DNA of 39,294 nucleotides. Source: Paracoccaceae bacterium. GTDB taxonomy: Bacteria > Pseudomonadota > Alphaproteobacteria > Rhodobacterales > Rhodobacteraceae. A model generated the notes under the pieces. It worked only from the letters and a program-made list of their open reading frames with translations. It did not search any database and was not told where the DNA came from. Where the stretch lies: the NCBI GenBank assembly GCA_013214665.1, contig JABSSA010000082.1, forward strand, positions 1 to 39,294, given 5' to 3'. Positions 3,270 to 37,904 of this stretch are shown here, piece after piece. The first letter of the stretch is position 1. The number at the start of each line of letters is the position of its first letter. The position numbers and the translations under genes are program-made.

Positions 3270-3315
3270 ATGCCGCAATCAGACAAGTGCGCCCCTGCGC
3301 ATCCTCTACACCCGC

Positions 3316-3482
3316 AGATGATGGTGGCGGGCTAAGGTCCGCCTGAAAAGGGAACCGGGTGAAAATCCCGGACTGCCCCCGCAACTGTGACCGGAGAGTG
3401 GCCCGACACACACCACTGACCCGCCAAGGGTTGGGAAGGTTCGGCGCCGCAATGACCCGCTAGTCAGGAGACCTGCCATCGC
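3316..3482 (+). promoter_or_regulatory. Adenosylcobalamin (B12) riboswitch
   Basis: The region carries the class hallmarks in order. There is a GGGAA plus GGTGAAAATCCCGGACTGCCCCCGC-like core (about 3350-3382), then CAACTGTGACCGG, then CCACTGAC (about 3412-3420) and GGGAAGGT (about 3433-3440). The B12 box GTCAGGAGACCTGCC is at about 3463-3477. GATGG at 3320-3324 can pair with CCATC at 3476-3480 to close the outer helix. It lies 61 nt upstream of the cbiM start. High cobalamin should switch off the downstream permease. Ends are approximate. Confidence 0.95.
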
Positions 3483-3492
3483 CAATGAAACC

Positions 3493-3512
3493 GGCCCAAA
3501 GGGCCCCCTTTT
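3493..3512 (+). terminator. Candidate riboswitch expression-platform hairpin
   Basis: GGCCC (3493-3497) and GGGCC (3501-3505) form a stem with an AAA loop. CCC and TTTT follow, just after the B12 aptamer and before the cbiM ribosome-binding site. It could be the off-state terminator of the riboswitch. The stem is short and the T run is only four bases, so control by hiding the ribosome-binding site is equally possible. Confidence 0.5.
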
Positions 3513-6127: not shown

Positions 6128-6174
6128 CTGGGCAACAGATAACCCTTCTATTATCAGATTGTTGCCCAGTTTTT
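6128..6174 (+). terminator. Hairpin terminator after the cobF-SBF pair
   Basis: CTGGGCAACA (6128-6137) pairs perfectly with TGTTGCCCAG (6160-6169), and GATAA (6138-6142) pairs with TTATC (6151-6155) inside it. TTTTT follows at 6170-6174. It begins about 70 bases after the SBF gene. Because it also sits about 90 bases before flagellin 1, an operator role cannot be excluded. Confidence 0.7.
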
Positions 6175-6214
6175 GCCACACTCTCCCATCAGATGGAAAG
6201 GCGACAAAAGCCAC

Positions 6215-6257
6215 GTCAGTCAGAAGACTGGAAAAAAATGAGAATAAGGGAGAGCAG
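6215..6257 (+). promoter_or_regulatory. Flagellin 1 5'-leader hairpin and ribosome-binding region
   Basis: The leader contains GTCAGTCAGAAGACTG (6215-6230), which folds as CAGTC-AGAA-GACTG. A purine-rich stretch with AAAAAAATGAGAAT and the ribosome-binding site GGGAGAG follows. The flagellin 2 leader (minus strand 37847-37832) has the identical 16 bases. The distances to the ATG are similar: 29 nt here and 33 nt there. In Caulobacter, FlbT acts on the 5' leader of flagellin mRNA, and flbT is in this window, so this is a candidate binding element. Confidence 0.65.
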
Positions 6258-6259
6258 TA

Positions 6260-7084
6260 ATGTCGTCCATTCTCACGAATAATTCCGCGTCCGTCGCACT
6301 GGCAACACTCAAGAGTGTGAACCGTGGACTAACCGAAACTCAAAGCCGCGTGTCTTCGGGCCTTCAGGTCCGTTCAGGTAAGGACAACGCCGCCTACTTC
6401 GCCATCTCGGAGACGATGAAGGGCGACAGTGGCATGTTCAAAGCCATCAACGAAGGCATGACATCCACCAAAAACTCCGTCGCCACCGCGCGTCTGGGTG
6501 CCGAAACTGTCAGTGATCTGGCAGAACAGGTTGTCGAACGTATCGCCTTTGCACAAGGTGATGGCGTGGACAAAGCCGCTGTGCAGTCCGAACTGGATTC
6601 ACTGGCCGCCAACATGCAATCCGCCATTGATCAGGCCACATTCAACGGCGATGACCTCGTCGGTGGTGCCGCGGCAACGCAAACTGTTGTCACCGGGATC
6701 ACACGGTCTGGCGGTACATTCGGCACAACCACGATGACGTTTGACTCCGTTGACTTGCAGGCGATCCAAACGGCGATCTCTGGCATTGATCTGACAACTT
6801 CCACTGACCTGGCCGCCGACCTGGTGACCGCGGAGGGACAGTTGCAGAATGCAATCTCTGCGTCTACTTCCTTGGGTGTTGCGGAAAAGTCGATTGAAGA
6901 CCAGCAGAACTTTATCAGCAGTCTGACGGATACAATCGATTCCGGTATCGGATCTATGGTTGACGCCGATATGGAAGAAGAAGCCGCAAAGTTGCAGGCC
7001 TATCAGGTGCAACAGCAGCTGGCGACGCAATCCTTGGCGATTGCAAACCAGTCTCCTGGCAACATCCTGAGCCTCTTCCGCTAA
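6260..7084 (+). CDS. fliC: Flagellin 1 (filament protein)
   Basis: This 274-residue flagellin begins MSSILTNNSASVALATLKSVNRGL, has LSRVSSGL-like and SGKDNAAYFAISE segments in the N-terminal coiled region, and ends QSPGNILSLFR. The central variable part is short, as in many alphaproteobacterial flagellins. It is exported and polymerises into the filament. GGGAGAG lies about 6 bases before the ATG. A close paralogue is encoded at the far end of the island in the opposite direction. No CtrA-like TTAA box is present upstream, unlike the paralogue. Confidence 0.95.
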   Translation: MSSILTNNSASVALATLKSVNRGLTETQSRVSSGLQVRSGKDNAAYFAISETMKGDSGMFKAINEGMTSTKNSVATARLGAETVSDLAEQVVERIAFAQGDGVDKAAVQSELDSLAANMQSAIDQATFNGDDLVGGAAATQTVVTGITRSGGTFGTTTMTFDSVDLQAIQTAISGIDLTTSTDLAADLVTAEGQLQNAISASTSLGVAEKSIEDQQNFISSLTDTIDSGIGSMVDADMEEEAAKLQAYQVQQQLATQSLAIANQSPGNILSLFR

Positions 7085-7171
7085 TAGCGCACATGTAATG
7101 AGTGTTCCCTGTTCTCAGGCGCAAAAGTGCCTGCACTAAGGGTTGCTGCCAAGTTTCTTTAGTAAACACAC

Positions 7172-7203
7172 GTGGCACCTCGGACAAAATGTCTGGGTGC
7201 CAC
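7172..7203 (+). terminator. Hairpin after flagellin 1
   Basis: GTGGCACC (7172-7179) pairs with GGTGCCAC (7196-7203), and an inner GACA (7183-7186) can pair with TGTC (7190-7193). No T run follows (AATTCATTT). It may protect or end the flagellin mRNA, and lies between convergent genes. Confidence 0.5.
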
Positions 7204-9562: not shown

Positions 9563-10081
9563 ATGACAGTGTTAACTCCAGAGAACTTTGCCGCGTCGTC
9601 TGCGCAAAGTGAGACGTCACCAAAATCGAAGGGCGCAAGCCTGACGACCAGCGATGCTGCGTTGATCATTTCGGCATTTGCCGGACGCGGCGCCGCAACA
9701 GTCGACGAAGTTGTCGACCTCACAAAACGCCTTTTGGATCTGGAGCCTTCCCCAGTTCAAGGAAACGTCATTGCTGCTGTCGTTGAGACAGCCATGGGCT
9801 CAGCACAAGACACGCCGGCCGTAGACCCGGCGCTCTCTGTCGACCCTGACAAGGTGACATGTCTGTGCTGCGGTAAGAAATTTACGATGCTCAAACGCCA
9901 CTTGATGGCAGAGCATGGCATGACCGAAGCCGAATACCGCACACGCTTTGGCCTTTCGCCGGATCATCCGCTTGTTGCGCCCAATTATTCCAAGCGCAAA
10001 GCGGATTACGCGCGTCGCATCGGGCTGGGCAAACATGAGCGCGATTTGGCCGCAACAGAAGAATTTCGGCGTAGCCAATAA
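9563..10081 (+). CDS. mucR: Ros/MucR family zinc-finger transcriptional regulator
   Basis: This 172-residue protein has the prokaryotic zinc-finger pattern C100-x2-C103-x9-H113-x4-H118 within CLCCGKKFTMLKRHLMAEHG. The family's TEAEYRTRFGLSPDHPLVAPNYSKRKADYARRIGLG block follows. MucR proteins bind AT-rich DNA and in alphaproteobacteria often control motility, exopolysaccharide and cell-cycle genes. The N-terminal 90 residues include ALIISAFAGRGAATVDEVVDLTKRLL, the usual oligomerisation region. It sits directly before motB, so a role in flagellar gene control is plausible but inferred from position. Confidence 0.92.
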   Translation: MTVLTPENFAASSAQSETSPKSKGASLTTSDAALIISAFAGRGAATVDEVVDLTKRLLDLEPSPVQGNVIAAVVETAMGSAQDTPAVDPALSVDPDKVTCLCCGKKFTMLKRHLMAEHGMTEAEYRTRFGLSPDHPLVAPNYSKRKADYARRIGLGKHERDLAATEEFRRSQ

Positions 10082-19823: not shown

Positions 19824-20222
19824 ATGGGCTTAACCGCGTACAAGCGGACGATCTCCAATACGGAGTCGCCGCGTCAAATCGAACGTCGGATCCTACAGCA
19901 AGCAACGTCAGAGCTTGAAAAATTTCAGGCAGAGTTCGATCAAGCGGAAAAGCGGTTTGATCGCTTGCAGATGTTGGCCGATGGGGGCCGCAACTCGCTG
20001 TGGAAGAACCAGCAAATTTGGATGTCGCTCAAGCATGACTTGATGGAGAGCGAGAACCAACTGGACGAAAACCTACGTGCTTCCCTGATCTCATTGGCCG
20101 TTTGGGTCGAAAACCACACACAGTCCGTGATGGCGGGGGGTAAAGAAATTCGCCCTCTAATCGACATAAATCGCAGCATAATCGACGGCCTAAGCGGACG
20201 CGCCTTAAGCCCAGCGAGGTGA
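19824..20222 (+). CDS. flaF: Flagellin biosynthesis regulator FlaF
   Basis: This 132-residue protein begins MGLTAYKRTISNTESPRQIERRILQQATSEL and continues with the helical FlaF core, including NQQIWMSLKHDLMESENQLDENLRASLISLAVWVENHT. FlaF is an alphaproteobacterial factor that promotes flagellin translation or secretion and works against FlbT. The ATG follows AGGTGCAAAAAAG. flbT begins 4 bases after its stop. Confidence 0.92.
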   Translation: MGLTAYKRTISNTESPRQIERRILQQATSELEKFQAEFDQAEKRFDRLQMLADGGRNSLWKNQQIWMSLKHDLMESENQLDENLRASLISLAVWVENHTQSVMAGGKEIRPLIDINRSIIDGLSGRALSPAR

Positions 20223-20226
20223 CATA

Positions 20227-20649
20227 ATGGCACTACGGCTTACTTTAAAACCGAACGAACGGATCGTTATCAACGGATGCGTCATCCAAAACTCGGATCG
20301 ACGCCAGATGATCACTATTGAAAACCACGCGGATGTGGTGCGTGAGTCTGACCTGTTGAAAGAAGACGAAGCACGGACACCCGTGAAAGAGGTCTATTTC
20401 CTTATTCAGGCCTCATTGCTGGACCAAAATGTCCGCGAAAAGCTGATACCGAAGGTGCAAAAGAAGCTTGGGCAACTCGTGCCTCTGTTTCATGACGAAA
20501 TGTCTAAGCACTTCTTTGAAGCGGCACAGCATGTGTCAACGTCAGACTATTATAACGCGATGCGGTCCTTGCGACCTGTGATCAATTATGAGGCGCAATT
20601 GTTCGAAATGATCAACGCCAAGAACAAGAAAACCGGCACAGACGGCTAG
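20227..20649 (+). CDS. flbT: Flagellin mRNA regulator FlbT
   Basis: This 140-residue FlbT begins MALRLTLKPNERIVINGCVIQNSDRRQMITIENHADVVRESDLL and contains ARTPVKEVYFLIQASLLD and SDYYNAMRSLRPVINYEAQLFE. In Caulobacter, FlbT represses flagellin synthesis by acting on the mRNA 5' leader until the hook is built. The twin leader hairpins of the two flagellins here are candidate targets. It lies between flaF and the DUF1217 gene in one apparent unit. Confidence 0.94.
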   Translation: MALRLTLKPNERIVINGCVIQNSDRRQMITIENHADVVRESDLLKEDEARTPVKEVYFLIQASLLDQNVREKLIPKVQKKLGQLVPLFHDEMSKHFFEAAQHVSTSDYYNAMRSLRPVINYEAQLFEMINAKNKKTGTDG

Positions 20650-36976: not shown

Positions 36977-37798
36977 TTAACGGAACAAGCTCAAAATGTT
37001 TTGCGGCGCCTGGTTCGCGATCGAAAGCGACTGCGTTGCAAGCTGCTGCTGTACCTGGAAGGCCTGGAGACGTGCAGCCTCCTCTTCCATATCTGCATCG
37101 ACCATGGCGGAAATGCCCGTGTCGAGTGTATCGGTGAGGCTCTCAAGGAACATCATCTGGCCATCAAGCGTTTTCTCGCTTACACCAAGGCTGGTGGCCG
37201 CGGTAATCGCATCAGCCAGCGCACCTTCCGCTGTGGACAGATCCGCCACGAGGTCGGTTGAAGTGGACACGTCAATGGCTGCCAGTGTGGTCTGGATCGC
37301 GCCCAAGTCGACTTCTGTGATGTCGATGGTGGTCAGCGCGAAAGAACCGCTGGCACGGGAAACACCCGTCACAACCGAGACTGTGCTTGTGGAGTCAACG
37401 AGGTTGTCACCGTTAAATGTGGACTGACTGATCGCCGAACCGATCTGTGCGACGAGGCTGTCAAGCTCCAGCTGCACGTCAGCGGTGTTGATACCGTTGC
37501 CCTGGGCAAACGCGACCCGCTCAACAAAACTTTCAGCAAGATCGCTGACTGTCTCAGCACCCAAACGTGCTGTTGCAACAGAGTTTTTCGTGGATGTCAT
37601 GCCTTCATTGATGGCTTTGAACATCCCGCTATCGCCCTTCATCGTCTCAGAGATGGCGAAGTAAGCGGCGTTTTCTTTACCTGAACGCACCTGCAAACCG
37701 GAAGACACCCGGTTTTGCGTTTCATTCAAGCCCCGATTGACATTGTTCAAGGTGGCCAGAGCCACCATTGCCGAATTATTGGTGAGAATGGACGACAT
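36977..37798 (-). CDS. fliC: Flagellin 2 (filament protein)
   Basis: This 273-residue flagellin begins MSSILTNNSAMVALATLNNVNRGLNETQNRVSSGLQVRSGKENAAYFAISE and ends QAPQNILSLFR. It is nearly identical to flagellin 1 in the first 100 residues but diverges in the middle (about 110-200). It is likely a second filament protein. Unlike flagellin 1, it has a CtrA-like box upstream (37890-37904). It shares the leader hairpin and a similar ribosome-binding region (GGAGAGC). It lies downstream of flgI-flgJ-flgN on the same strand. Confidence 0.95.
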   Translation of the reverse strand: MSSILTNNSAMVALATLNNVNRGLNETQNRVSSGLQVRSGKENAAYFAISETMKGDSGMFKAINEGMTSTKNSVATARLGAETVSDLAESFVERVAFAQGNGINTADVQLELDSLVAQIGSAISQSTFNGDNLVDSTSTVSVVTGVSRASGSFALTTIDITEVDLGAIQTTLAAIDVSTSTDLVADLSTAEGALADAITAATSLGVSEKTLDGQMMFLESLTDTLDTGISAMVDADMEEEAARLQAFQVQQQLATQSLSIANQAPQNILSLFR

Positions 37799-37801
37799 TT
37801 A

Positions 37802-37847
37802 ATGCTCTCCTCAATTCTCTTTTTTTATGTTCAGTCTTCTGACTGAC
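37802..37847 (-). promoter_or_regulatory. Flagellin 2 5'-leader hairpin and ribosome-binding region
   Basis: The minus strand at 37847-37832 reads GTCAGTCAGAAGACTG, identical to the flagellin 1 leader. It folds as CAGTC-AGAA-GACTG and can extend through ATGT/ACAT with one bulged A. AAAAAAAGAGAATTGAGGAGAGC follows, similar to flagellin 1, with the ATG 33 bases after the hairpin. It is a candidate FlbT site. Confidence 0.65.
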
Positions 37848-37889
37848 ATCAGCTTTTTCTGCCGACGCCCGAACCTAAGCTGGAGGAGA

Positions 37890-37904
37890 TTAAAGGGGCG
37901 TTAA
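37890..37904. promoter_or_regulatory. CtrA-like box upstream of flagellin 2
   Basis: On the + strand TTAA-AGGGGCG-TTAA followed by C; on the minus strand it is TTAA-CGCCCCT-TTAA. It lies 91 bases upstream of the flagellin 2 ATG and about 40 bases upstream of the leader hairpin. Confidence 0.67.

Follow-up and report, generated by a model that had tools for sequence, protein, structure and literature searches.

Post-transcriptional regulation of flagellin by FlbT has been recognised since 2000, but how FlbT acts is still counted among the unresolved questions, without any recognition motif being given (PMC4347634). In Caulobacter, FlbT interacts with the 5' leader of fljK (Anderson and Gober 2000, as cited in PMC4894983, PMC3930126 and PMC4347634) and works with a flagellin paralogue, FljJ, as co-repressor, which is relieved by secretion; FlaF is a flagellin secretion chaperone in this organism (PMC7591256). 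The FlaF/FlbT pair was considered a possible analogue of CsrA-FliW by Dugar et al. (2016). A structured RNA upstream of alphaproteobacterial flagellar genes, the flg-Rhizobiales RNA (Rfam RF01736, Weinberg 2010), is also known; its name appears in PMC2864571. In the open-access literature searched (most subscription papers lay outside it), the conserved hairpin, the loop switch and the FlbT-CsrA similarity reported here were not described.

The window (the whole stretch of DNA analysed, 39,294 nucleotides) carries flagellin 1 (W1; 6260..7084, + strand, 274 aa) and flagellin 2 (W2; 36977..37798, - strand, 273 aa), which are the regulated genes in our proposal and the only two full flagellin matches in the genome. 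The sequence GTCAGTCAGAAGACTG lies about 30 nt 5' of the ATGs of both genes (6260 and 37798), at 6215-6230 (+) and 37847-37832 (-), and occurs exactly twice in the whole genome (4,265,656 bases), once per flagellin gene. No further copy with three or fewer mismatches was found in the window (chance expectation 0.14), and the matches with three mismatches elsewhere in the genome are mostly within long ORFs, none being seen before flagellar genes. Each copy folds into a hairpin (SL2) with a stem of 5-6 bp and the tetraloop AGAA, namely, 6216..6231 (+) for flagellin 1 (stem 6216-6221/6226-6231, loop 6222-6225) and 37831..37846 (-) for flagellin 2 (stem 37846-37841/37836-37831, loop 37840-37837). 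The fold energies are -6.5 and -9.3 kcal/mol; energy alone does not prove the hairpin, because the single-sequence z-scores are only -1.2 and -1.8. Directly 5' of SL2, both leaders contain a candidate second hairpin, SL1 (GGC-GACAAAA-GCC at 6200..6212 (+) and TCGGC-AGAAAAA-GCTGA at 37849..37865 (-)). Relatives often have a short hairpin at this site (44 leaders, mean fold z = -1.34), and SL1 has less support than SL2. Purine-rich spacers and Shine-Dalgarno sequences (GGGAG at 6248..6252 (+) and GGAGAG at 37805..37810 (-)) are present in both leaders. Two claims of the initial annotation have thus held: the same 16-nt hairpin in both flagellin leaders with similar purine-rich spacers and ribosome-binding sites, and the location of flaF (19824..20222, + strand, 132 aa; Pfam PF07309, 7.1e-25) and its partner flbT (20227..20649, + strand, 140 aa; Pfam PF07378, 4.5e-34), the latter encoding the proposed hairpin-binding repressor, in the same island. 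A ROS/MucR-type regulator is also encoded within the flagellar island (9563-10081, +).

Several other features were recognized around the two genes. A box of the CtrA type, TTAA-N7-TTAA, is found 5' of flagellin 2 (37890..37904, -), and similar boxes are present in many related leaders; the assignment rests on the generally known CtrA consensus. The W1-type flagellins (leaders L003 and L004, and window 6155-6180 (+)) lack this box and share instead a TTGCCC...TTTTTnCAC-like stretch, whose promoter type was not recognised. An intrinsic terminator was rejected, since the hairpin has a stem of only 5-6 bp that leads into A-rich sequence, where a terminator would have a U run after a G+C-rich stem. 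In the window and near relatives, GAGAAT ahead of the Shine-Dalgarno sequence can pair with ATTCTC in codons 4-5; this pairing is not claimed here because it is not kept in more distant relatives. Downstream of flagellin 1, at 7116-7200 (+), there are two more C-ARAA-G hairpins, CAGGCGC-AAAA-GTGCCTG and the long GTGGCACCTCGGAC-AAAAT-GTCTGGGTGCCAC, neither of which was observed 3' of flagellin 2 or in the majority of relatives. A further sequence, TTTAGTAAACA, is common to the 3' regions of the two flagellin genes (around 7158 (+) and 36934 (-)); its core, TTTAGTAAA, is lacking in those relatives that were checked. No Rfam family matched at gathering score in the window leaders and 31 loci, including Caulobacter-type leaders; elsewhere in the window, a cobalamin riboswitch is located at 3305-3494 (+) (146.5 bits).

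With flagellin 1 as query, 79 loci were collected from named Rhodobacterales genomes, of which 77 leaders could be read together with those of W1 and W2, 78 being distinct. These leaders share a structured element, C-[A-R-A-A-(N)]-G, that consists of a covarying stem capped by a nearly invariant loop with C-G closure. Examples are GTC-AGAA-GAC in Sulfitobacter, Shimia and Cognatishimia, GTC-AGAAA-GAC and GCC-AGAAA-GGC in Salipiger and Oceanicola, and GTC-AGAAT-GAC and GGCC-AGAAT-GGCC in Yoonia and Paracoccus. The element was found in 64 of the 78 leaders, about 3 being predicted by shuffles, and AGAA is unique among the 256 possible loop 4-mers (60 leaders, compared with 19 for the runner-up and 2.3 in shuffles). 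Counted against the rest of the same loci, 56 of 77 leaders have the element vs 0.014 per 130 nt elsewhere, an enrichment of about 50-fold. Two Sulfitobacter leaders have tandem copies, with differing stems in one of them. Tandem downstream flagellin paralogues (L032 4086 and L038 3959) have their own copies of the hairpin. In two Roseobacteraceae (L027 3969 and L030 3906), ARAA-loop hairpins are found directly before flaF, a possible second target; no such hairpin was seen before flaF in the window.

Tetraloops and pentaloops were counted apart, as a MAFFT alignment failed to separate them. In the tetraloop set, which includes two rows from outside Rhodobacterales, 97.9% of the cells are paired, with 11 both-side changes, double changes at four of the five pairs and a covariation score of 0.356 (0.141 in shuffles); in the pentaloop set, 95.2% are paired and the score is 0.345 (0.194 in shuffles). 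Neither score was reached by any of 500 shuffles, and the scores collapse when the partner is slid by one column. The rows were chosen from a CAGAA-anchored list and spurious and bulged cases were omitted, which somewhat favours structure. The initial annotation would have been refuted by an absence of conservation or compensatory change in relatives; the opposite was found, namely a near-invariant ARAA loop and strong covariation of the stem.

These data also bear on two rival explanations. That the hairpin is merely a remnant of a recent flagellin duplication, or due to chance, is suggested by the presence of two copies in one genome, before genes whose proteins are 74% identical, and the initial annotation had left duplication as a possible cause of the conservation. 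This caveat has failed: W1 groups with a Sulfitobacter sediminilitoris flagellin (support 97/93) within a clade of 12 genes (99/97), and W2 is outside that clade. W1 and W2 are not recent duplicates, because they sit in different supported parts of the tree; their leaders align poorly except for the hairpin and the Shine-Dalgarno region. As the hairpin is, moreover, found in dozens of species, far more often than shuffles predict, this rival is practically ruled out. A second rival regards CAGTC-N4-GACTG as a DNA operator bound by a dimeric transcription factor, and it is true that a perfect inverted repeat lies near a promoter with a CtrA-type box. However, the arms undergo compensatory changes while the asymmetric AGAA loop of the sense strand stays fixed and alone dominates the loop 4-mers, the loop length alternates between 4 and 5, and the position tracks the start codon. 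We therefore find an operator very hard to defend.

The element is not limited to Rhodobacterales. Among 192 genomes across the class, flagellin was found in 113, FlbT in 67, CsrA in 42, FliW in 35 and FliS in 44. In Caulobacteraceae, 23 of 28 leaders contain the element, mostly as a tandem pair with C-AAAAN-G loops directly after a sigma-54-type site. The closest genomes match a C. crescentus FljK query at 84-88% identity; we take them to be Caulobacter-type, a label that rests on that query. In the tandem pair, 92.5% of the cells are paired, with 26 double-change cells and a covariation score of 0.375 (0.175 in shuffles, likewise reached by 0 of 500 and lost on sliding by one column). A covariance model of the pair gave 34 matches (E ≤ 6 × 10-4) in 40 genomes, all at flagellin starts: 29 are about 20 nt before listed flagellin matches, and the other five, read directly, also precede flagellins. 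Because all 34 precede flagellins, the tandem element is flagellin-specific in these 40 genomes.

The hairpin lies close to the probable 5' end and, in Caulobacteraceae, immediately follows a sigma-54-type site. This would suit a third rival, a plain stabilising hairpin that guards flagellin mRNA against decay without any specific binder. Such stabilisers, however, require a stem and not a fixed loop, and in this element it is the loop that hardly changes and the stem that is variable; this explanation seems most improbable.

In flagellated Alphaproteobacteria, FlbT and CsrA are nearly mutually exclusive: both were found in only three flagellated genomes, FlbT alone in 59, CsrA alone in 35 and neither in 16. 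FliW and FliS show the same exclusion with FlbT, and the genome of the window has no CsrA (no match to PF02599), FliW or FliS. The loops of C-G-closed leader hairpins were compared between the two types, by genome and leaving out the Rhodobacterales and Caulobacteraceae groups. ARAA loops were found in 23 genomes and AGGA loops in two of the FlbT+ CsrA- type, vs two and 16 genomes, respectively, of the CsrA+ FlbT- type (shuffled leaders yield about 2 ARAA and 0.6 AGGA). With stems of at least 4 bp, the ARAA:AGGA ratios are 18:1 (FlbT+) vs 0:16 (CsrA+). The p-values for this switch (8 × 10-8, Fisher, and 4 × 10-9) overstate the evidence, because the lineages are not independent and the FlbT/CsrA distribution is clade-structured. 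A small number of AGGA matches overlap the Shine-Dalgarno sequence, which in some CsrA+ genomes is inside the hairpin UCC-AGGAN-GGA and in some FlbT+ genomes inside UCC-AGAAN-GGA. Of the 74 leaders taken from other FlbT+ genomes, just 24 have a clear ARAA hairpin, and where it is missing FlbT may act at other sites. Hairpins with C-AGGTA-G loops recur alongside C-AGGAN-G in CsrA+ leaders (e.g., L377, L379 and L400), so alphaproteobacterial CsrA possibly tolerates GGU. The AGGA loops in two FlbT+ genomes (L145 of G153 and L425 of G158) are possible intermediates of the switch.

The modelled FlbT (pLDDT 94.7) has five short strands followed by four helices. By profile comparison, the N-terminal five-strand region, whose predicted strands are in order, resembles CsrA throughout the core (hhalign, 38 columns, with E-values of 1.4 × 10-5 to 2 × 10-4 that each apply to one pairwise comparison), its score of 25.1 comparing with a mean of 10.2 (sd 2.2, maximum 16.9) for 100 column shuffles. 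The score holds if the Rhodobacterales rows are left out, and likewise if the rows of E. coli and B. subtilis are omitted; circular column shifts were uninformative as a control, the aligned block staying intact in several of them. The near-invariant R39 of FlbT is aligned to R44 of CsrA, a residue generally known to contact RNA, and R6 of CsrA is not kept (Leu in FlbT). The CsrA model of Pfam did not match FlbT, the sole match being PF07378 (FlbT); Foldseek and VIA searches with the N-terminal monomer model gave weak matches without listing CsrA, though a monomer model need not reveal the intertwined dimer that CsrA forms; and a PDB sequence search with the FlbT profile found no useful relative. 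For the C-terminal part, a helical bundle, VIA ranked FliS first (3k1i, Z = 8.5, in a range common for helical bundles), with four further FliS entries in the top 50. A FliS link had no profile support (13.8, below the shuffled maximum of 16.9), and this negative outcome indicates that the profile test does not merely say yes. A bolder reading, which could as well prove wrong as right, is that FlbT diverged from CsrA, its loop specificity moving from AGGA to ARAA, and was joined to a flagellin-sensing helical domain; FlbT and FlaF would then have replaced CsrA-FliW-FliS in one large branch of Alphaproteobacteria, the flagellin leader hairpins being re-tuned alongside.

The explanation that fits best, and that we consider likely, is that the hairpin is a cis-acting RNA element by which FlbT controls flagellin synthesis. 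In this view, the transcribed leaders of both flagellin mRNAs would present a short stem whose AGAA loop is closed by C-G, and this hairpin probably forms a pair with a second one on its 5' side. FlbT, encoded in the same island, would use its CsrA-like N-terminal domain to bind the A-R-A-A loop, probably in the form of a dimer spanning two hairpins or two sites, and would reduce both the translation and the lifetime of flagellin mRNA until completion of the hook-basal body, whereupon export of FlbT-bound flagellin, with FlaF as secretion chaperone, may lift the block. Conservation, covariation, flagellin specificity, the likeness to Caulobacter fljK-type leaders and the AGGA-to-ARAA switch with CsrA-to-FlbT are shown; binding of FlbT to the loop, a CsrA-like dimer mode and repression in the organism of the window are inferred, there being no binding data. 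Two reports count against the model: a Phaeobacter flbT transposon mutant is motile, though a repressor would allow this, and in Brucella FlbT reportedly activates. The FlbT+ leaders without a clear hairpin and the absence of CsrA from the fold matches also weigh against it.

The remaining rival is that another RNA-binding factor (a ribonuclease, a small regulator or the ribosome standby machinery) reads the hairpin and that its co-occurrence with FlbT reflects shared ancestry. The clade-structured presence of FlbT, the many FlbT+ leaders without a clear copy and the missing binding data speak for it. On the other hand, Caulobacter FlbT reportedly acts via a leader of the same kind, the loop switches with FlbT/CsrA, and in the 40 genomes the tandem element is found at flagellin leaders alone; we regard another factor as unlikely. 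The proposal of the initial annotation that the hairpin is a candidate FlbT target is, therefore, supported as a well-grounded inference, direct binding and an effect of hairpin mutations remaining inferred. Its parallel with Caulobacter FlbT is borne out by the same kind of element in fljK-type leaders and by a loop identity that tracks FlbT vs CsrA, and the class-wide spread, the tandem architecture and the CsrA parallel go beyond it.

Of the known systems, the C. crescentus fljK leader shares with the window a flagellin leader with C-G-closed A-rich loops near the 5' end and the presence of flbT/flaF in the genome. The match is at the level of element type, as the mutated loop of Anderson and Gober (2000) was not matched base by base. 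Caulobacter-type leaders differ in having tandem AAAAN loops after a sigma-54-type promoter, whereas in the window the 3' hairpin has AGAA and flagellin 2 a CtrA-type box. The flg-Rhizobiales RNA (RF01736) is similar as a structured RNA placed before flagellar genes, and the window leaders have no Rfam match at gathering score. The flagellin-leader hairpins of CsrA/RsmA systems with FliW (Bacillus, Campylobacter and CsrA+ Alphaproteobacteria) share a short hairpin with a C-G-closed 5-nt loop, A-G-x-A-N, in one or two copies, some overlapping the Shine-Dalgarno sequence. This situation differs in the loop itself, which is AGGA in CsrA/RsmA sites and AGAA (ARAA), without GGA, in the window. In short, the consensus gives a precise, testable target for FlbT and predicts which bases matter, the result ties FlbT to the most thoroughly studied family of RNA regulators in bacteria, and FlbT+ leaders beside CsrA+ leaders represent a natural experiment in switching specificity.
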